A DNA stretch of 43,887 nt from a virus. Shown here in pieces: positions 6,989-43,887 of this stretch. The notes beneath the pieces were generated by a model, which was given only the letters and a program-made list of their open reading frames with translations, was not told the origin of the DNA and did not search any database. The stretch covers positions 1-43,887 of IMG/VR virus record IMGVR_UViG_3300042923_000597; one strand, written 5' to 3'. A program made the translations under genes and the position numbers. How positions within the stretch are numbered: the first letter of the stretch is position 1; each line of letters starts with the position of its first letter.

Positions 6989-8631
6989 CAGGCCGCCTCC
7001 TCCTCCTCAGGCTCCGTGTTCGAGCCGCCCGCGCCGGGGGCCGGGGGAGCGCCGGGAAGCCCGAACGTCTCCAGGTCCACGGCACCCTCGTCCTCGATGC
7101 GCTTGAGTTCGGCCTCCACGTCCGCCTCGTCCCAGTCCGGGTGCATCGTCTTCACGCGGGTGTACCGGCTGGAGGCGTCCGAGTCCTTCTGAAGGTGCGC
7201 CGTCTCCGCCAGCGACTTCGGGGACTCCTGCACCGCGTCCGGGAAGACGACCTTCACGGGCATGGGCGTGATCTGGGTGCCGAAGACCTCGCGGTCCACG
7301 ATGAGGAGGCTCGTGAGGAGCGGTTCGAGCGCGGCCCGCCAGTACAGGACCTTCTTGTCCCGGGTGGCGAGGGTGCGCTTGTTGCGGCCCACGAACTCCG
7401 TCGCCGTCATCTCCGCGGCCCCCTCCCCGCCCTGCTCGTTGTCCGGGGTGAAGCCCGCCGCCTCGACGGCCTTCGCGGTGAGGTCGTCAATGATGGCCAG
7501 GTGCTCCTGGTAGCGAATGTCGAACTGCACCTGATCGATCGGTGCCTCCTGGCCCGTGTCGCCCGGCTGACGCTTCAGTGAGACGAAGAGGCGTTCGGAG
7601 CCATCCCACGACGCGCCCTTGCCGAACCCGGCGTTGCGGAGCATGTAGTCGGCCACGAGGAGGCGGCTCTGGCCGTCCTCCACGTCCCGCATGAGGCTGG
7701 ATGCCGTCTGGTCGATGGCGCTGAAGAGTCCGATGCACGCGGGGGTGAAGTCGGAGCGGCCCGCGTTGTTCTGCCGGTCCATGGGGTCCGGGAGCATGTT
7801 GGGCACGTTGACGGCCGTCGTCAGGCCGGGGCGCGCGAAGGTGGCCCCGAACTCGTTCACCCTCAGCGAGGCCGTGGAGGCGTGGTCGGAGAGCGGTGCC
7901 AGGCGGCCCAGGCTCACAGGGGTGCCCTTGTAGAGCGCATGGTAAATGAAGCCGCCCTCGTGGAGTTCGAGATGCCGCCAGACCTGGGATGCGTCGGAGT
8001 ACACCACGCGCCAGAACAGCACGCCGGTGAGGAACCCCCAGTCGTAGAACGGGAAGTACGCATCAGCGTCCGCCCGGGTGATCGTCGGGAACTGGGCGAT
8101 GGCCGGGTTCCATGCGAGGCGGAGCCCCACGGATCCGAGGGCGCTCGCCGTCTCCGCCGCCGACAGGAGGGTGGCCAGGAGGCCGATCTGATCCACGAGG
8201 GCATCCAGCCGGTCCTGAGTCTTCTGCGTCTCCGGGGCCGGGGTGACCTTCTTCGTCACCGGGTCCTGCACCGTGGGGCCCTCCACCACGAAGCGGGGCG
8301 GGTCGCTGAAGAGGGCTTCCGCGCTCATGTGAGCGATCTTCTCCGGCACCGGCAGGTGCACCTTCTCATCGAGCGGGCCCGACTGCGGGGTGCCCCAGAA
8401 CTTCGAGGATGCGCGCTCCTGGGCGCGTCGAGACTGGCCGGTGCCCAGGTGCAGGCCGGAGCCCGCGCCGGAGAGCCAGGACCGCACGCCACCGCCGGGC
8501 TGGGAGCCCTGGTAGAACGCGCGGAGGTCATCGGGGTCACCGGCATACCAGACGGAGCGCTCACCGATGCGGTCGTAGCGGGCGGCGTCCTGGGTGAGGG
8601 GCCAGTCGGAGTTTTCGGGCGGGAAGGGCAT
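6988..8631 (-). CDS. Portal protein
   Basis: This 547-residue protein starts MPFPPENSDWPLTQDAARYD. It has the hallmarks of SPP1 gp6-type portals: an N-terminal RFYQGS-like region, FSDPPRFVVEG near residue 110, a central alpha/beta domain (YFPFYDWGFLTGVLFWRVVY), a long C-terminal helical region (HLQKDSDASSRYTRVKTMHPDWDEADVEAELKRI) and an acidic tail. It forms the dodecameric DNA channel at one capsid vertex and docks the terminase. It lies between the large terminase and the MuF gene, the canonical order. Confidence 0.88.
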   Translation of the reverse strand: MPFPPENSDWPLTQDAARYDRIGERSVWYAGDPDDLRAFYQGSQPGGGVRSWLSGAGSGLHLGTGQSRRAQERASSKFWGTPQSGPLDEKVHLPVPEKIAHMSAEALFSDPPRFVVEGPTVQDPVTKKVTPAPETQKTQDRLDALVDQIGLLATLLSAAETASALGSVGLRLAWNPAIAQFPTITRADADAYFPFYDWGFLTGVLFWRVVYSDASQVWRHLELHEGGFIYHALYKGTPVSLGRLAPLSDHASTASLRVNEFGATFARPGLTTAVNVPNMLPDPMDRQNNAGRSDFTPACIGLFSAIDQTASSLMRDVEDGQSRLLVADYMLRNAGFGKGASWDGSERLFVSLKRQPGDTGQEAPIDQVQFDIRYQEHLAIIDDLTAKAVEAAGFTPDNEQGGEGAAEMTATEFVGRNKRTLATRDKKVLYWRAALEPLLTSLLIVDREVFGTQITPMPVKVVFPDAVQESPKSLAETAHLQKDSDASSRYTRVKTMHPDWDEADVEAELKRIEDEGAVDLETFGLPGAPPAPGAGGSNTEPEEEEAA

Positions 8632-16101: not shown

Positions 16102-16131
16102 ACTCTAGCACCCCTAGCGGACGGGGTGCAA
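16102..16131 (-). promoter_or_regulatory. Leftward promoter
   Basis: TTGCAC (16131-16126) and TAGAGT (16107-16102) are separated by exactly 18 bases, the spacing shared with the promoters at 21253, 31038 and 32838. It overlaps the last codons of the methyltransferase gene. It lacks the full GGGGTTRCA palindrome, so it may escape that control. Confidence 0.7.
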
Positions 16132-16692
16132 CACCCGGACGTGTGCCCACGGCAGACCGGCGTCGAGCGCCCGCCAGGATCCGCTGAGGGCCTTCACTTC
16201 GAGGTCCGCGGTGCAGAGCGGGTGCGTCATCCGTGTGGACGGCATGCGGCCCTCCAGGATGATCTGGGAGACGCCGACGCGGCGGAGTTCGCTGGCGAAC
16301 GCGGCCAGCCCGTCGAGCCCCAGCGCGTCCGACAGTTCGGGGAAGATGCGGCGGGCCATGACGGTCCCCGGGGCCTGCTCGCGGATCCAGTCCACCGCCT
16401 CCCCGACCGTCTTCGGGCCGATGCGGGTCAGCATCGTGGGGATGCCCTCGAAGACCCCGGCGGCGAGCCCCACGCCCATCGCGCGACCGTCCGCATCCAT
16501 CGCGGAGACGATGCGGCCCCTGTCGGCCATCTGACGCCCCAGGAGCCCCGTGGAGCACCCCAGGTCCAGGACGCGCTCACCGGGCGCTGTGAGCCGCGTC
16601 GTGGCGTCCGCCATGGCGTTGTGGATCGCGGGGTACGTGTACCGGTCAGCCATCCACCGGGTGACGTACTCCGGCGCGTCGAAGCGGCTCAT
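16114..16692 (-). CDS. Class I SAM-dependent methyltransferase
   Basis: The protein has 192 residues from the ATG at 16692. The SAM-binding motif I is clear (ERVLDLGCSTGLLG, residues 39-52), followed by an acidic end of strand 2 (SAMDADG). I see no NPPY/DPPY motif of the usual DNA amino-methyltransferases and no PCQ motif of cytosine-5 enzymes, so its target is unclear. It is short for a DNA methyltransferase. It follows ParB-like and PP-loop genes by four-base overlaps, suggesting joint action in a modification pathway; that is inference. Confidence 0.75.
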   Translation of the reverse strand: MSRFDAPEYVTRWMADRYTYPAIHNAMADATTRLTAPGERVLDLGCSTGLLGRQMADRGRIVSAMDADGRAMGVGLAAGVFEGIPTMLTRIGPKTVGEAVDWIREQAPGTVMARRIFPELSDALGLDGLAAFASELRRVGVSQIILEGRMPSTRMTHPLCTADLEVKALSGSWRALDAGLPWAHVRVLHPVR

Positions 16693-17237
16693 GCCGACGC
16701 CTCCTCGATGACGACCTCCGGGGCCTTCGCGACCTCCACCGGGTACCAGGCGTTCGAGTAGGCGTGATTCTTCGTGTCCAGCCGGGCGAAGACGCCATCC
16801 TGCGCCAGAAGTTCGACCTCCTGCTTCGTCGCGCCGATGCCCTTCATGACCTCCTGGATGCTCACCCCGGCCTCCAGGAGCCCGTGCACGATACGGCTCA
16901 TCTCGTAGGCCACGTGGGTGCCCTTCGCGCGGTTGATCCGCACGGTGAGCATCATGGCGTCCGTGTCGCTGAGGTTCAGCCGGGCCACCGGCACGAGGCC
17001 GCGAGTCATCTCCCGCACCTGCGGGGAGTCCTGGGCGAGACGCCAGCGGTGGAAGCCGTCGATGATGAGCCCCGTGGGGTTCGCGAGGACGGGCTGGATC
17101 CAGCCCGTGCTCAGAAGGGAGTGCTCCAGAAGCCGGAGTTCGGCGCGGTGCACCCGGTTCGGGTTCCACGGGTTCGGGTGAAGGTCCTGCGGGTCCGTCC
17201 ACTCGATGGTGTTGATGGGCTGGTGCTGGTCACTCAT
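16689..17237 (-). CDS. ParB/Srx-fold protein (second copy in the cassette)
   Basis: This 182-residue protein has the ParB N-terminal signature: DLHPNPWNPN (residues 18-28), LLEHSLLSTGWIQPVL, then IIDGFHRWRLA (58-68), corresponding to the G-x-H-R nucleotide loop. The later helices (VSIQEVMKGIGATKQEVELL) resemble an HTH region. ParB-like proteins bind nucleotides and many act as nucleases or CTPases. Its start overlaps the PP-loop gene by eight bases and its stop overlaps the methyltransferase, so the three are co-translated. Pairing of a ParB-like and a PAPS-reductase-like protein recalls IbrA/IbrB. Confidence 0.8.
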   Translation of the reverse strand: MSDQHQPINTIEWTDPQDLHPNPWNPNRVHRAELRLLEHSLLSTGWIQPVLANPTGLIIDGFHRWRLAQDSPQVREMTRGLVPVARLNLSDTDAMMLTVRINRAKGTHVAYEMSRIVHGLLEAGVSIQEVMKGIGATKQEVELLAQDGVFARLDTKNHAYSNAWYPVEVAKAPEVVIEEASA

Positions 17238-18339
17238 TCGCGGGGAGTCCTGTTCTCTGACGGCGGCGGTCGGCCGCTCCGTTGCCCTCGGGGAGGATGG
17301 TGCGCTTGTAGGCCCCGTTCGCCACCTGTCGCAGGAGGTACTGGGCGTCGAAGAGGCCCGGCGCGACGGGGCGCATGCCGATGCTCTCGCGGACCTTCGT
17401 GCGGGCCTTCGCGCGGCTGGCGCGATCCGTGATCTTCTCGGAGATGTACCGGAAGAGGGATTCGTCGGTGCCGTCGTCATACGGCTCCGTGTCGGAGGCT
17501 CCGGCGCGGAACTCAGCGAAGTAGCGCTCCTGCACCGCCATCTCGGGGAAGACGGCCATGAGTTGGTCGTAGTAGACCGGATCGACCTCGCGGTGGACGT
17601 GGAAGCGCTTCGCGTTCTCCGAGTGCAGGGGCGTCGAGACGCGGAGTTGCACCCCGGCCCACATCTGCCGGTCATAGTGCTGGCAGTACCGGATGCCGCG
17701 GTCGTAGAAGTAGCGGAACACGTCCGCCTGCTCCCAGTCGAAGATGGGCTTCACGAAGGCCGTCTTCGGGGTGGCCCCCTTGTTGATGTAGTTCAGATCG
17801 AGTTTGTTCACCGAGGCCCGGAAGCGCATCAGGGACTCGCTGGCGCGGATGCCGTTGAGGATGCCGACGCGACCCTGGAGGGCGTTGCCGGTGATGAGTT
17901 CCACCTCGTACTGAGAGATGAGGGTGTCGGCGGGGAGTCCGAGGTCTTCGAGCGTCGTCGCCCATGGCGGCCGCGGGCGGGTGTGCTCCCGCGTCGGGTC
18001 CCACTGAATGTACTCACGCACGTCCCCGAGGATGAACTTCTGGGAGAGCATCGGGACGGCCAGCCAGAGCATGTTGACCCACGGCTTCTGGCGGTACTCG
18101 TTGACGAAATCGATCACCGTGTCAGGGATCAACTCCTCGTCGTAGAAGGTGACGTTGACCATGCCGCCGGGGATGCCGCGCTCCAGGGCTACCTCGTGCG
18201 CGAGTTCCAGCACTACGAGGGAGTCCTTCCCTCCGCTGAAGGACACGCTGATCGAGTCGAACGTGTCGTACACGTAGTGGATCCGCTTCTTCGCCTCATC
18301 GAGCACGTTCGTCTCGATGTAGCCCCGCTGGCGGCTCAC
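17230..18339 (-). CDS. PP-loop ATPase, PAPS-reductase/IbrA-like (DUF3440 type)
   Basis: The protein has 369 residues from the GTG at 18339 (GTGA overlap with the ParB-like gene). The PP-loop is SISVSFSGGKDSLVVLELA, about residues 29-47. Further family-like motifs are LNGIRASESLMRFRA and FVKPIFDWEQADVFRYFYD. It contains only one cysteine (in RYCQHYDRQMW) and lacks the C-terminal ECGLH motif of true PAPS reductases and any Cys cluster for iron-sulphur. It is therefore likely an adenylating PP-loop enzyme rather than a sulphate reductase. The substrate is unknown; flanking ParB-like and methyltransferase genes suggest nucleic acid or nucleotide modification. Confidence 0.82.
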   Translation of the reverse strand: MSRQRGYIETNVLDEAKKRIHYVYDTFDSISVSFSGGKDSLVVLELAHEVALERGIPGGMVNVTFYDEELIPDTVIDFVNEYRQKPWVNMLWLAVPMLSQKFILGDVREYIQWDPTREHTRPRPPWATTLEDLGLPADTLISQYEVELITGNALQGRVGILNGIRASESLMRFRASVNKLDLNYINKGATPKTAFVKPIFDWEQADVFRYFYDRGIRYCQHYDRQMWAGVQLRVSTPLHSENAKRFHVHREVDPVYYDQLMAVFPEMAVQERYFAEFRAGASDTEPYDDGTDESLFRYISEKITDRASRAKARTKVRESIGMRPVAPGLFDAQYLLRQVANGAYKRTILPEGNGAADRRRQRTGLPANE

Positions 18340-18980
18340 AGGTCGCGCACCGCCCCGACGATCATCGCGGCCAGGCTCCGGCCGTCCGTGTGCTCGGCGC
18401 GGAGGCGGCGCACGAAGGCGTCCCACTCGCCGCGCTGGTCGGCGTCATCGAAGACGATGGTGAAGGACACGACGGGGTTGCCCTTCAGCACGTCGGCGGC
18501 GGTGCGGGTGACCTCTCCCGTCTCCTCGTCCACCTGCGGCTGACGGGCCTCGCGCTCCATCTCCGCCTCCAGCATGAGGGCCAGGTCATCGACCTCCTCC
18601 ATGCTGAAGCCGGTGCCCTCCAGGTCGTCCGGCTCCTCAGCGCCCAGGACCTCCGACAGGATCTCGTCCAGAAGCCGCTCGTCGTATGTCGAGTCGTCGC
18701 TGGTCTTGTTGTCGGCCAGGACGATGCGAGCGGCGGCGGCCTCGTCCACGTCGATGACGTTCGCGTGCAGGTGCTCCCATTCGAGTTCCTTCGCGGCCTT
18801 CAGCACGTGGTTCCCGGCCAGGACCTCCATCGGGCGGCCGGTGTGGGTGCCGGTGTTGACGACGATGGGCTTGAACTGGCCATTGCGCTGGAGGCTGGCG
18901 CGCACTCGCGCGACGTTCCCCCGGCGGGCGTTCTTGTAGTACGGGTTCAGGTCTTCGACCTTGACGCGGGACACCTTCAT
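18336..18980 (-). CDS. ParB-like nuclease-domain protein (first gene of the cassette)
   Basis: Of 214 residues, the first 120 carry a ParB-type domain: VEDLNPYYKNARRGNVARVR, SLQRNGQFKPIVVN, EVLAGNHVLKAAKEL and the phage-typical LADNKTSDDSTYDERLLDEI. The usual Arg after G-N-H is replaced by Val-Leu-Lys. The C-terminal 95 residues are acidic, ending FDDADQRGEWDAFVRRLRAE. The ATG has no ribosome-binding site; TAGACT lies seven bases upstream, so the transcript is probably leaderless. The stop overlaps the PP-loop start (GTGA). Confidence 0.8.
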   Translation of the reverse strand: MKVSRVKVEDLNPYYKNARRGNVARVRASLQRNGQFKPIVVNTGTHTGRPMEVLAGNHVLKAAKELEWEHLHANVIDVDEAAAARIVLADNKTSDDSTYDERLLDEILSEVLGAEEPDDLEGTGFSMEEVDDLALMLEAEMEREARQPQVDEETGEVTRTAADVLKGNPVVSFTIVFDDADQRGEWDAFVRRLRAEHTDGRSLAAMIVGAVRDL

Positions 18981-18987
18981 GAGGGGC

Positions 18988-18993
18988 AGTCTA
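18988..18993 (-). promoter_or_regulatory. -10 box for a leaderless transcript of the ParB/PP-loop cassette
   Basis: TAGACT, GCCCCTC, ATG: nearly identical (15 of 16 bases) to the site before 10525. The start codon coincides with the expected first transcribed base. It lies just downstream of a hairpin terminator (19008-19047), so the cassette forms its own transcription unit. Confidence 0.6.
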
Positions 18994-19007
18994 TCGCGTG
19001 AACTGAC

Positions 19008-19047
19008 CCCGCCCCCTCAGGGCCGAAGGGCCAGCCGAGGGGGCGGG
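19008..19047 (-). terminator. Terminator hairpin closing the DNA-metabolism operon
   Basis: CCCGCCCCCTC (19008-19018) pairs over 11 bases with GAGGGGGCGGG (19037-19047). It lies 40 bases past the stop of the HNH-like gene and just ahead of the cassette promoter. A second small stem (GCACT...AGTGC) lies near 19060. No T-run follows, as is common in high-GC phages. Confidence 0.65.
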
Positions 19048-19086
19048 ATGCGAGGGGAATGCACTCTGGGGAAGTGCGGTGCGAGT

Positions 19087-19461
19087 CTACGCTCGGGCCG
19101 CCACGAATGCTAGGTGCTCAGCGACCTCCGTGCGGGTCGCAGGACGGCGGCCGCCCTCGTCGTCCGCGAGCCACCATTGAGCGGTCGGCCAGTGCCAGTA
19201 CGGGATGGTCGTCAGGTCCCGCCGGTCCCACTTCGAGACCTTCCAGCCCATGCGGGTCGCGGTGGCACCCTCCTCGGCGTCCTGCTCGATCCAGACGTTG
19301 TACCGCACGTCCAGGATCAGGCCGTTGCTCAGGCGCTCCAGACGCTTCGAGCCGCCCATGCCCTTGTTCACCCGGTGCTGGACGCTCAACTCGTCCTCAG
19401 CGCCGCAGTGAGCGCACGCCAGGCCGTCCCGTGGGGCGACCCGGGCCACGCTGAGTTTCAT
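19087..19461 (-). CDS. HNH-like endonuclease
   Basis: This 124-residue protein has CAHCGAEDELSVQHRVNKGM near residues 16-35 and GGSKRLERLSNGLILDVRYN after it. A CxxC pair, a His in Q-H-R, and N in L-S-N-G-L correspond to the histidine and asparagine positions of HNH nucleases. A second Cys pair expected in many HNH proteins is missing, so metal binding is atypical. The C-terminal half is Trp-rich (IPYWHWPTAQWWLAD). It overlaps the clamp-like gene by four bases. A structural zinc protein without nuclease activity is the alternative. Confidence 0.62.
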   Translation of the reverse strand: MKLSVARVAPRDGLACAHCGAEDELSVQHRVNKGMGGSKRLERLSNGLILDVRYNVWIEQDAEEGATATRMGWKVSKWDRRDLTTIPYWHWPTAQWWLADDEGGRRPATRTEVAEHLAFVAARA

Positions 19462-40925: not shown

Positions 40926-41785
40926 CAGAACACCACGACCTTTCGCGGGTGCCACACGACGGATCCAGTCGTAGCGCCCGTGGCCCCCGGGAGGACCAAC
41001 TCAGCCGACGTGGAGCCCGGCGGGATGCTGAAGAATCGCGGCGCGGGCTCCAGCCCGGCGTACCGATTCGCCCCCGTCTCGTCCGTGACGGTGCCCTGCT
41101 GGGTGTCCAACTCGATCCACCCGGCGGCCTTCACGCCCACCCATTCGAGCACCTGCCCCGCGTGGGCGATGTAGATGCTGTTGAAGGGGGCGTTGAAGCG
41201 CCAGATGGGCCACGCCTGCACGTCGCCGGAGTTCTCGAAGGTGGCCGTGCCGGATCCGCCCATGTCCGACAGGGACAGGGTGACGAGGGACTTGCCCGGG
41301 CCGATGAGCGGGATGCCGAGGCCCTGGATGCCGATGTTGCGCGCCTCGGAGTCCACTCGGGTCCAGTACGGGTCACCGGCCTGCACGGTGAGCACCGTGC
41401 GGAGGTACGTCTTGCCGTCCGTGTCGGAGGACTCGAACGAGTAGTCGAGCCCGCCCGTCCGCACGACGCTCGCACGCCACGCCTCCCCGTCCAGGAGGAT
41501 CGTCATGGTGACCTCCCCCATCTCCTGCACGAAGATCCGGGCCAGGTTGCCGTAGCGGTTCAGCATGTCGGCGCGGTCGGTGCCGTAGACGCGCACCTCC
41601 ACGTCGATGACGCGGGGGAGGGTGCGGCCGCCGCGGTACGAGGCACCGTCACCGGCCCCCTCGAACCACTGGAGCGCCACCCCCGGCATGCCGAAGCCGC
41701 GAGTCTTCGCACCGGCCTTCACACCGGAGGCCTCGCCCATGACGAGCGAGCCCCCTTTGCCCTGGAACGACAGGACACGAGCCAT
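40925..41785 (-). CDS. Distal tail (Dit)-like protein
   Basis: It has 286 residues. The N-terminal half is a beta domain with IDVEVRVYGTDRADMLNRYG, typical of Dit belts, and YLRTVLTVQAGDPYWTRVDS closes it. The C-terminal half (GTATFENSGDVQAWPIWRFN, then the GATTGSVVWHPR end) looks like a galectin-type or carbohydrate-binding fold. Dit proteins connect the tail tube to the tip. The gene follows the tape measure immediately (one-base overlap), the conserved place. Confidence 0.8.
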   Translation of the reverse strand: MARVLSFQGKGGSLVMGEASGVKAGAKTRGFGMPGVALQWFEGAGDGASYRGGRTLPRVIDVEVRVYGTDRADMLNRYGNLARIFVQEMGEVTMTILLDGEAWRASVVRTGGLDYSFESSDTDGKTYLRTVLTVQAGDPYWTRVDSEARNIGIQGLGIPLIGPGKSLVTLSLSDMGGSGTATFENSGDVQAWPIWRFNAPFNSIYIAHAGQVLEWVGVKAAGWIELDTQQGTVTDETGANRYAGLEPAPRFFSIPPGSTSAELVLPGATGATTGSVVWHPRKVVVF

Positions 41786-43887
41786 CAGGACTCCCCTCCG
41801 AACGGCGACCGGGGGGACCCCAGGGCCGCGAATAGTGCTTCCTCGGCGCTGAGCGACTGATTCTCGGCCGCAACGTACACGAGGGTGCCCCCGGTACCCC
41901 CGGCGGATTCTGTCGCGTCAGACGGGCTCTCAGCGCTTCCGTCCATGACCATGCGGCCCAGCACCGTCCCGCGGAGCGAAGCGTCATCGAACGGATCCAC
42001 CGTGTGCATGCCCTCCGCGAACTGCTCCATGATCGCGGAGCCGGAGCCCAGGAGGCGCGTCCAGCCGGAGCCGGAGAACGGGCCGTGCTTCGCGGGGGAG
42101 TTCGGGAAGAACCCGGCCACGAAGTCCATGACGCCGCCGACCGCATCGCCCACCGCGCCAATCATCCCTTGGATGCCGTCGATGAGGCCCTGGATGATGG
42201 CGCGGCCGGAGTCCATGAGCCACTGGCCCGCCCCGGCGAAGACGTTCATGATCGTCTGCGGGATCCCCTGGAACCACGAAACGATGCCCTCCCAGACGGA
42301 CACGATGGTGGAGCGCACGCCCTCCCACAGTCCGGCCCAGAACGAGACGTACCCGTTGAACGCGCCGATCAGGAATCCGACGAAGCCGCCGACGACGCCC
42401 TGCACCCAGCCGACGAAGCCCTCCCAGACGGCCGTGATCCACGCGCCGATGCCAGCCCACAGGCCGTTCCACCACGAGGCCAGGCCATCTCCGACGCCCT
42501 TCAGCCAGCCGACGAAGCCCTCCCACAGGCCGGTGATCCAGCCGATGAAGCCCTCCCACACCTGCGTCACCCAGGAGGCGAAGCCCTCCCACATGCCGTT
42601 CCACCACTGCACGAAGCCGTCGAGCACGCCCATGAACCACGCGCTGAAGGCGGTCCACGTCTCGGAGAGCCAGGCCCACACGGCATCCCAGTTCAGGACG
42701 AGCCAGGTGATCGCGGCGACGAGGAGCCCGATGCCCACGATGATCGCGGCGATGATGAGGGTGATGGGCGTCAGGGACGCGACCCACAGTGCGGCCGCCA
42801 GCCCGAGCACAACGGCCGTCAGCACGCCGAGCGCGACGGCGAGCGCCTGCGCTACGGTCGGGTTCTCCGCCAGCCAGGAGAAGAACCCCTCCAGGATCGG
42901 GAGGACGTAGGACGCGATCTGCGTGGCGAACGTCTCGATGGTGCGGGTGATCGACTCCCACTGCGACTTGACGTTCGTGCCCAGCGAGTCCGCGTAGGCC
43001 TCGTTCGCCCCGGCGAAGTCGCCCATGGCCCCAGAGGCGTCCCCCAGGGACGCGAGGAACGTCGGAATCTCGTTGACGCCCAGGTCCTCCAGCGGCGTGC
43101 CGAAGAGGCCGATGGCGGCGTTCGCGCGAGCCACCGGATCCTCGATGCCGAGGAGCCCGTCGATGATCTGCTGGAAGCCCTCTTTGCCCTCCTCGCCGCC
43201 TGCGAGGATCTTCGCGCTCATGTCCTCCGCCGACAGCCCGGCGGCCTCGTAGGCGGCCACGCTCGTGGTGCTCATGTCGGTGGCCCGGATGCCGAACTCC
43301 TTCACGGCGTCACCGGTCTTGTCGATGCCGTACATGCCCTTCTCGGAGGCGGTGACGAGCGCGCCCATCGCCTCCTCGCCCGAGAATCCGATGGCCTGGA
43401 AGAACGGGCCGTACTCGTCCACGGCATCCATGAGGTCTTCGCGCACCGCCGGGGGCACCTTCTGGAGCGCCGCGGTGAGGAGGTCCAGGCCCTCCTCGGC
43501 GGAGGCCACCATGTCCGTGCTGATCATCTGGCCGACGATCTGCGAGATGCGGCCCGTCTCGATCTGGAAGCCGTCGCCCATCGCCTGGACGCCCTCCACG
43601 ATGCCCTGGAGTTCTTCGACGCTGGCGTCACGCATGCCCTCGATGGAGCCGATGACGCCCTCCGTCGTGGCCTGCACGGCCTCCATCGACTCACCGAAGG
43701 CGTTAGCGTAGGCGGCCGCGGCCGCGGATCCGGCGCGCTTCGACTGCTCCTCAGTGAGGCCCAGGTTGGCGGCGATCTTGTCGTTCCCGGCGTCCACGTT
43801 GACGGCGTTCACGAAGGCGGCGGAGAACGCGGCCGCGACGGCCACAGCGGCGACAGCGCCCGCGGCGGCCATCCAGCCCGGGAGTTT
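41785..43887 (-). CDS. Tape measure protein, main part (continues at 1-211)
   Basis: The whole protein is 728 residues once joined across the window ends. It determines tail length and is ejected with DNA. After an Ala-rich hydrophobic start (AAAGAVAAVAVAAAFSAAFV), residues 70-340 resemble the TP901-type tape-measure core. A membrane-like stretch follows (AVALGVLTAVVLGLAAALWV and ITLIIAAIIVGIGLLVAAIT). Then comes a long array of about 11-residue repeats rich in Trp and Gly (WEGFASWVTQVWEGF, WITGLWEGFVGWLKG). It is short for its class. By the usual 0.15 nm per residue the tail would be near 110 nm; that is a rule of thumb. Confidence 0.92.
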   Translation of the reverse strand, partial: KLPGWMAAAGAVAAVAVAAAFSAAFVNAVNVDAGNDKIAANLGLTEEQSKRAGSAAAAAYANAFGESMEAVQATTEGVIGSIEGMRDASVEELQGIVEGVQAMGDGFQIETGRISQIVGQMISTDMVASAEEGLDLLTAALQKVPPAVREDLMDAVDEYGPFFQAIGFSGEEAMGALVTASEKGMYGIDKTGDAVKEFGIRATDMSTTSVAAYEAAGLSAEDMSAKILAGGEEGKEGFQQIIDGLLGIEDPVARANAAIGLFGTPLEDLGVNEIPTFLASLGDASGAMGDFAGANEAYADSLGTNVKSQWESITRTIETFATQIASYVLPILEGFFSWLAENPTVAQALAVALGVLTAVVLGLAAALWVASLTPITLIIAAIIVGIGLLVAAITWLVLNWDAVWAWLSETWTAFSAWFMGVLDGFVQWWNGMWEGFASWVTQVWEGFIGWITGLWEGFVGWLKGVGDGLASWWNGLWAGIGAWITAVWEGFVGWVQGVVGGFVGFLIGAFNGYVSFWAGLWEGVRSTIVSVWEGIVSWFQGIPQTIMNVFAGAGQWLMDSGRAIIQGLIDGIQGMIGAVGDAVGGVMDFVAGFFPNSPAKHGPFSGSGWTRLLGSGSAIMEQFAEGMHTVDPFDDASLRGTVLGRMVMDGSAESPSDATESAGGTGGTLVYVAAENQSLSAEEALFAALGSPRSPFGGES
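43761..43887. repeat. Terminal direct repeat, right copy
   Basis: Exact copy of bases 1-127. See the left copy: the tape-measure reading frame is continuous across the join, so the genome is circular or circularly permuted. Confidence 0.95.

Follow-up and report, generated by a model that had tools for sequence, protein, structure and literature searches.

The locus

The window analysed here is a 43,887-base viral contig (IMG/VR record IMGVR_UViG_3300042923_000597, G+C 69.5%), and our subject is a cassette of four genes that lies on its minus strand. The genes encode two ParB-fold proteins (ParB1 and ParB2), a PP-loop protein and a small methyltransferase, see Table 1. An earlier sequence-only reading of this DNA had described the genes as coupled by overlaps of 4 to 8 bases; the coordinates are confirmed, and from ParB1 through PP-loop and ParB2 to the methyltransferase the overlaps are 4, 8 and 4 bases. 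All four genes have a third-codon G+C of 0.91-0.93. All have clear homologues in PHROGs, namely phrog_723 for ParB1 (E-value 8e-57), phrog_2302 for the PP-loop protein (5e-100), phrog_2159 for ParB2 (6e-70) and phrog_11826 for the methyltransferase (7e-37). From the codon bias and the homologues together, the four open reading frames (ORFs) are real genes.

That reading also regarded the four genes as one unit, which is borne out by the recurrence of the module in other phages, see below. It further assigned the unit a leaderless promoter of its own and an upstream terminator, and this held only in part. The TAGACT hexamer and a strong hairpin are indeed present, but the promoter scan upstream of the cassette gave no sigma-70-type match and TAGACT has no sigma-70 consensus, while the terminator scan of the same region found none and the hairpin has no T-run. 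TAGACT as a putative cassette promoter is therefore suggestive only. A gap of 106 bases, together with the hairpin, separates the cassette from the HNH gene upstream.

Table 1. Features of the four-gene cassette and its upstream flank in the window.
Feature	Position	Strand	Remarks
ParB1	18336..18980	-	214 residues; ParB_N domain (PF02195) and conserved C-terminal domain
PP-loop ATP-pyrophosphatase, PAPS-reductase superfamily	17230..18339	-	GTG start; 369 residues
ParB2 (IbrB-like, ParB/Srx fold)	16689..17237	-	182 residues; DGFHR and TxRxNRAxGxH motifs
Class I S-adenosylmethionine (SAM) methyltransferase	16114..16692	-	192 residues; ARRxFPE replaces DPPY
TAGACT, -10-like hexamer	18988..18993	-	7 bases 5' of the ParB1 ATG; possible leaderless promoter; read from sequence
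GC-rich hairpin between HNH gene and cassette	~19006..19049	-	-42.5 kcal/mol, z -4.0; no T-run
HNH endonuclease-like gene, upstream neighbour, outside the cassette	19087..19461	-	phrog_740, E-value 9e-19

A conserved core shared by many phages

Co-occurrence of the four genes in the same order in other phages had been proposed as a check, and it is found. The order ParB1, PP-loop, ParB2, methyltransferase is seen in Arthrobacter phage Salgado and, with small genes interposed, in the Mycobacterium abscessus prophage prophi79-1. Nocardia genome contigs (L132-L137) also carry the intact cassette in this order, with a terminase nearby in at least three, and these loci are consistent with prophages. 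Bacillus phage 055SW001 has the same gene set with the methyltransferase placed between PP-loop and ParB2, and the three-gene core is also present in mycobacteriophage Phlyer and in Rhizobium phage L338C.

An alignment search with the PP-loop family retrieved 80 viral contigs, and nearly all that are long enough show ParB2 beside PP-loop, most of them with ParB1. In 122 de-duplicated modules, PP-loop and ParB2 occur together in 118 and ParB1 is present in 99. Among the closest known systems are the Arthrobacter Laroyevirus phages (Salgado, Laroye), whose genes 5-8 correspond to the cassette gene for gene and in its order, with annotations that come from homology only. The PP-loop protein of the window is 52% identical to theirs and the methyltransferase 37%. 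However, in Laroyevirus the cassette is located directly upstream of the terminase genes, while the terminase of the window is about 6 kb away. A nucleotide search of phage records for close relatives of the window gave no match.

The sequence-only reading had been reminded of the IbrA/IbrB pair, and the PP-loop protein and ParB2 of the window are related to it. In IbrA/IbrB and YbdN/YbdM of Escherichia coli, as in the window, the gene of a PAPS-reductase-superfamily protein adjoins a DGxHR ParB-like gene. The architecture of IbrA and YbdN is nevertheless rejected for the PP-loop protein of the window, which matches PF01507 only and not DUF3440. This domain, known from YbdN, is present in 9 of 42 PP-loop family members, including more distant modules, while the window protein and its close relatives have another C-terminal region instead. 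ParB1 and a methyl- or acetyltransferase are further additions to the pair. The four-gene cassette extends the IbrA/IbrB-like PP-loop/ParB pair in an undescribed form; a literature search found no paper on it.

The PP-loop protein has no conserved cysteine

PF01507 is matched with an E-value of 1e-12, and the signature SFSGGKDS occupies residues 33-40. Across 118 homologues SGGKDS is 97-98% conserved, and SGGKDS, GxRxxESxxR and PxxDWxxxD together reach about 97-99%. The AlphaFold2 (AF2) model is confident (predicted local distance difference test score, pLDDT, 90.5), and a fold search (E-value 3e-7) places FAD synthase first among the closest solved folds, followed by PAPS reductase, CysD, TtuA and TilS, with NcsA also among the neighbours. 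The SGGxDS motif and the PAPS-reductase-like fold place the protein in the PP-loop ATP-pyrophosphatase superfamily. Of these PP-loop enzymes, FAD synthase and TilS adenylate their substrates and do not transfer sulfur.

No alignment column in the 118 homologues contains cysteine in more than 59%. The only cysteine of the window protein, C219, falls in a column with 51% cysteine and 44% asparagine. Since the family is without a conserved cysteine, persulfide, Fe-S or sulfur-transfer chemistry appears unlikely, and sulfur transfer by this enzyme was rejected on the same ground. The assimilatory PAPS/APS reductase CysH is likewise rejected, given the single cysteine, the missing ECGLH motif and a cysH score of 20.5 against a cut-off of 165 bits. 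The earlier view of a protein with one cysteine and no ECGLH, for which sulphate reduction is unlikely, is thus upheld.

A sulfur chemistry of the DndC, SspD, BrxP or TtcA kind, i.e., phosphorothioation or base thiolation, could be proposed from PADLOC matches to BrxP (2e-9) and DndC (1e-4), and PAPS-reductase-like proteins of M. abscessus prophages have been likened to DndC (PMC8092301). DndC itself has an Fe-S centre and a cysteine pair (PMC10853773). The window protein scores 12.8 against the NCBIfam DndC cut-off of 290 bits, its family has no conserved cysteine, and no DndA, DndD or DndE partner was recognised in the modules. DndC identity is rejected on these grounds, and we regard sulfur chemistry as the most improbable of the explanations. 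The Dnd, Ssp and BREX type 4 systems do share a PAPS-reductase-like PP-loop enzyme with the modules, and DndB of Dnd is also a member of the ParB superfamily. They differ in the cysteines and in the cysteine desulfurase, SspB and PglZ, none of which was recognised in the modules.

In four other modules (L048, L057, L060, L086) a tandem pair of PP-loop genes is present.

Two ParB-fold proteins and a link to DNA

The presence of two different ParB-fold proteins, as claimed earlier, is confirmed. ParB1 matches PF02195 (E-value 3e-6) and also the ParB part of the phrog_498 DNA methyltransferases (4e-27); against PADLOC it matches MTase_II (3e-13). ParB2 is IbrB-like, and in 110 homologues its motifs NxxNPN, DGFHR and TxRxNRAxGxH are kept at 88-99%. 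Its profile matches the structures of ParB and Spo0J, which are ParB CTPases, and only weakly the free serine kinases of ParB/Srx fold. ParB1 is assigned to the ParB/Srx fold through PF02195, and ParB2 through DGFHR and the match to the ParB CTPases. Because its three motifs are conserved, ParB2 is suggested to be a nucleotide-using protein and not a scaffold. A PHROGs search with 24 window ORFs found no ParA; parS sites were not searched for.

In one locus (L091:7614-8912) the ParB1 domain is fused to an N6/N4 DNA methylase (PF02195 E-value 4e-12, PF01555 3e-11). The fusion gene directly follows PP-loop and GNAT genes and is a member of the module. A second ParB1-DNA methylase fusion (L022:10339-11664, PF01555 E-value 2e-29) is found about 4 kb from a PP-loop/GNAT module. 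Since the first fusion belongs to the module, DNA appears to be its likeliest target. ParB-like proteins are known from DNA modification elsewhere. For example, ParBc proteins accompany the phage enzymes that carboxymethylate cytosine (PMC12783734), and the ParB-like ATPase DpdB serves 7-deazaguanine modification of DNA bases (PMC12839542). These pathways differ from the cassette in other respects. From the former it lacks a CmoX of cytosine methyltransferase type, CmoA and the AMP-forming ligase, although CmoX/CmoY pathways also vary in their second-step ligases; here the PP-loop enzyme would be the ATP-using step. Of the latter, neither the window ORFs searched nor the genes that recur beside the modules include TGT/DpdA, QueC/D/E or DpdC.

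Modification of tRNA is common among PP-loop enzymes. A target in translation (tRNA, rRNA or a protein), whose modification would favour phage translation or evade an RNA-targeting defence, would be in line with TilS, TtuA and NcsA among the structural neighbours of the PP-loop protein, with PrmA among those of the methyltransferase and with a weaker match of the latter to the phrog_4752 tRNA methyltransferase (E-value 8e-5). On the other hand, the two ParB proteins and the ParB1-DNA methylase fusion indicate DNA, and no RNA-binding domain was found. We consider an RNA or translation target rather improbable.

The methyltransferase alternates with an acetyltransferase

The methyltransferase has a class I SAM motif I (DxGxxxGxL), in which D43, G45, G49 and L50 are conserved, and its model has a Rossmann fold. 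P21, I23, H24, R114, R115, E119 and G148 are the other invariant or near-invariant residues. The lack of a recognisable DNA-target motif, noted earlier from the sequence, is confirmed: there is neither a (D/N/S)PP(Y/F/W) nor a PC motif, ARRxFPE ends beta-4 and no target-recognition domain is present, so that an amino- or C5-DNA methyltransferase is rejected. The AF2 model (pLDDT 94.4) is nearest to WbdD, UbiG and PrmA with template-modelling scores of ~0.6.

The neighbours of the methyltransferase model are small-molecule enzymes, FAD synthase is the top fold for the PP-loop protein, and free serine kinases are weakly matched by ParB2. This could be read as production of a modified nucleotide or other small molecule, acting in counter-defence or as an inhibitor, or as modification of a host protein. 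We judge such a role unlikely, as the genes that recur next to the modules include no transporter, target or biosynthetic gene, and the ParB1-DNA methylase fusion also argues against it.

The methyltransferase family was searched by alignment, independently of the module; a single-sequence scan of viral contigs gave nothing. The search returned 36 viral and 7 genomic loci, of which 41 are real, two weak and short matches without a module (L131 and L138) being set aside. The PP-loop gene adjoins the methyltransferase in 38 of these 41 loci, and the other three are cut by contig ends. No free-standing member of the family was found among the 41 loci on viral and genomic contigs. The methyltransferase family belongs to the PP-loop/ParB module.

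In Kovu, a relative of Salgado, a GNAT acetyltransferase replaces the methyltransferase between ParB2 and the terminase small subunit. The same GNAT family takes this slot elsewhere, e.g., PP-loop, GNAT, HNH, ParB2 versus PP-loop, methyltransferase, HNH, ParB2. The two enzymes are unrelated. In 64 close-clade modules the fourth slot holds the methyltransferase in 38 (a count inflated by loci that came from the methyltransferase scan), GNAT in 14, neither in 12 and both in none, while by our own arithmetic independent occurrence would give both in about eight. Loci found by the PP-loop query alone give 9 with methyltransferase and 14 with GNAT, again with zero overlap. A quick PP-loop tree, supported by the SH-like approximate likelihood ratio test only, contains at least eight switches between the two. 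A GNAT-fold enzyme is also used in DNA modification by phage Mu, namely Mom, but the slot GNAT has no sequence similarity to it (hhalign probability 0.8%), and a relationship was rejected.

Carriers of the module avoid restriction sites

The sequence-only reading favoured a modification that guards the phage against host defence. Carriers of a cassette that shields DNA from restriction would have no need to avoid restriction sites. Observed counts of palindromes were compared with maximal-order Markov expectations, and a site was called depleted when more than five-fold below expectation. Avoidance in the window is extreme: for AGCT, 101 copies are expected and none is observed, and of the 33 testable six-base palindromes 13 are depleted, compared with 8 of 2010 non-palindromes. 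GCCGGC, GGCGCC, GACGTC, CTCGAG, GTCGAC, TCCGGA, CTGCAG, CGTACG and ACGCGT are also completely absent from positions 1-43887.

Depleted six-base palindromes number 16/40 in Salgado, 16/38 in Kovu, 17/40 in Phlyer and 10/41 in Bacillus 055SW001, all carriers of the module, and 16/40 in D29 and 18/37 in TM4, two actinophages without it; the sample is small and incompletely matched. Prophi79-1 (2/45), lambda (5/52) and phiC31 (5/32) are lower, and hypermodified T4 and SPO1 have 0/38 and 3/39. Broad protection from type II restriction by the cassette is not visible. As carriers avoid palindromes as strongly as the module-free actinophages, an anti-restriction role is not supported, and protection from host defence finds no support with regard to type II restriction. 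A blanket hypermodification shielding the genome from host restriction is therefore very unlikely in our view, even though the module resembles a modification pathway with tailoring enzymes; the depletion in its carriers is like that in D29 and TM4 and unlike that in the heavily modified T4 and SPO1. In the BASEL study, too, avoiding sites and modifying DNA are treated as two distinct ways to resist restriction (PMC8594841).

A possible mechanism

We suggest, with slightly less than even confidence, that the cassette could be a post-replicative DNA-modification module, guided by ParB proteins, dependent on ATP and provided with a swappable capping enzyme. It can be read directly from the sequences that the core is conserved, that its PP-loop is intact while no cysteine is conserved, that the methyltransferase is linked exclusively to this core and alternates with GNAT, and that one ParB1-DNA methylase fusion belongs to a module. 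From this we infer that DNA is the substrate, that adenylation is the chemistry and that both caps are placed on the same group. In this model (i) the two ParB-fold proteins would bind phage DNA and a nucleotide cofactor, (ii) the PP-loop enzyme would use ATP to activate a base by adenylation, so that a non-sulfur nucleophile could be attached, as modelled on tRNA lysidine synthetase or FAD synthase and not on DndC or CysH, and (iii) the small methyltransferase, or in other phages the acetyltransferase, would cap the added group. The modification would be made on finished DNA, because the 24 window ORFs searched include no gene for modifying the nucleotide pool. Since no relief from restriction is visible, the mark is probably placed sparsely or at specific sites, or else has a role in packaging or timing. 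ATP-dependent DNA modification, the other half of the earlier hypothesis, thus still appears to be the best reading, given the conserved PP-loop, the absent conserved cysteine, the fusion and the swappable transferases. The alternative named in that reading, a role against host transcription or translation, met with neither support nor contradiction.

Several points weigh against this proposal. The methyltransferase fold is generic and its closest structures work on small molecules or proteins, the cap is dispensable in the 12 modules with neither enzyme, and restriction-site avoidance in the carriers implies that their DNA is not broadly shielded. Modules are not always adjacent to packaging genes: many directly precede the terminase genes, while in other phages they lie among replication genes. 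Moreover, the only known functional report on relatives, IbrA/IbrB, reportedly concerns prophage gene expression. It can be speculated that the module mainly regulates phage gene expression or packaging in the manner of IbrA/IbrB, with catalysis secondary, as would suit the relationship of ParB2 and PP-loop to IbrB and IbrA and the many modules before terminase genes. An enzyme pathway would better explain the conserved catalytic motifs and the swappable transferases, and the modules among replication genes also speak against a regulator, which is quite unlikely.

Going further, the modules could represent a new class of viral DNA modification, with non-sulfur PP-loop adenylation, two ParB-fold guides, alternating methyl, acetyl or sugar caps and a purpose beyond restriction evasion, for example a packaging mark or the timing of late functions. 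We hold this broader proposal to be doubtful. Phages and bacteria widely carry IbrA/IbrB-like PP-loop/ParB pairs, and the literature search found no chemistry assigned to them. The strict alternation of methyltransferase and acetyltransferase in one slot offers a direct experimental handle. If the modification model is true, Salgado (methyltransferase), Kovu (acetyltransferase) and Phlyer (neither) should share a core product with +14, +42 and no extra mass, respectively. All three are isolated and culturable, which makes an old question accessible to ordinary nucleoside mass spectrometry. The palindrome result is also a caution against taking every phage modification module as an anti-restriction device.

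Further genes in the window and in related modules

The window has siphophage-type genes (terminase large subunit, portal, major head, tail tape measure and minor tail), as well as a RecE-like exonuclease, a replication initiation gene and a repressor. The genome is incomplete, as the contig ends on the right within the tape measure gene (41785-43872). In many related modules an HNH gene stands beside the cap enzyme. It is of another family than the HNH of the window (phrog_740); the two do not match, and their identity was rejected.

A small domain with the conserved pattern W...AP/YPH.Y..., without a Pfam or PHROG match, is found beside the PP-loop gene in several loci (the L051:5852 region, L062, L072, L077, L090) and at the N-terminus of the "methyltransferase" gp158 of Microbacterium phage Dewdrop (L013:5004-5990). 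At one end of the Dewdrop record (L013:2347-5990), three glycosyltransferases, a GNAT acetyltransferase and a methyltransferase precede the PP-loop gene, annotated as "adenylyltransferase", and at the other end three ParB genes lie ahead of the terminase.

In the more distant modules, glucosyltransferase-like, cupin-like, TauD-like dioxygenase and other methyltransferase genes are found near the core. About 28 of these (L040-L092) have a cupin-like protein of ~250 residues, with a weak AraC_binding/Cupin_2 match, between ParB1 and PP-loop, and one PP-loop/GNAT module (L033, ~7110-7772) contains the gene of a TauD-like Fe(II)/2-oxoglutarate dioxygenase.

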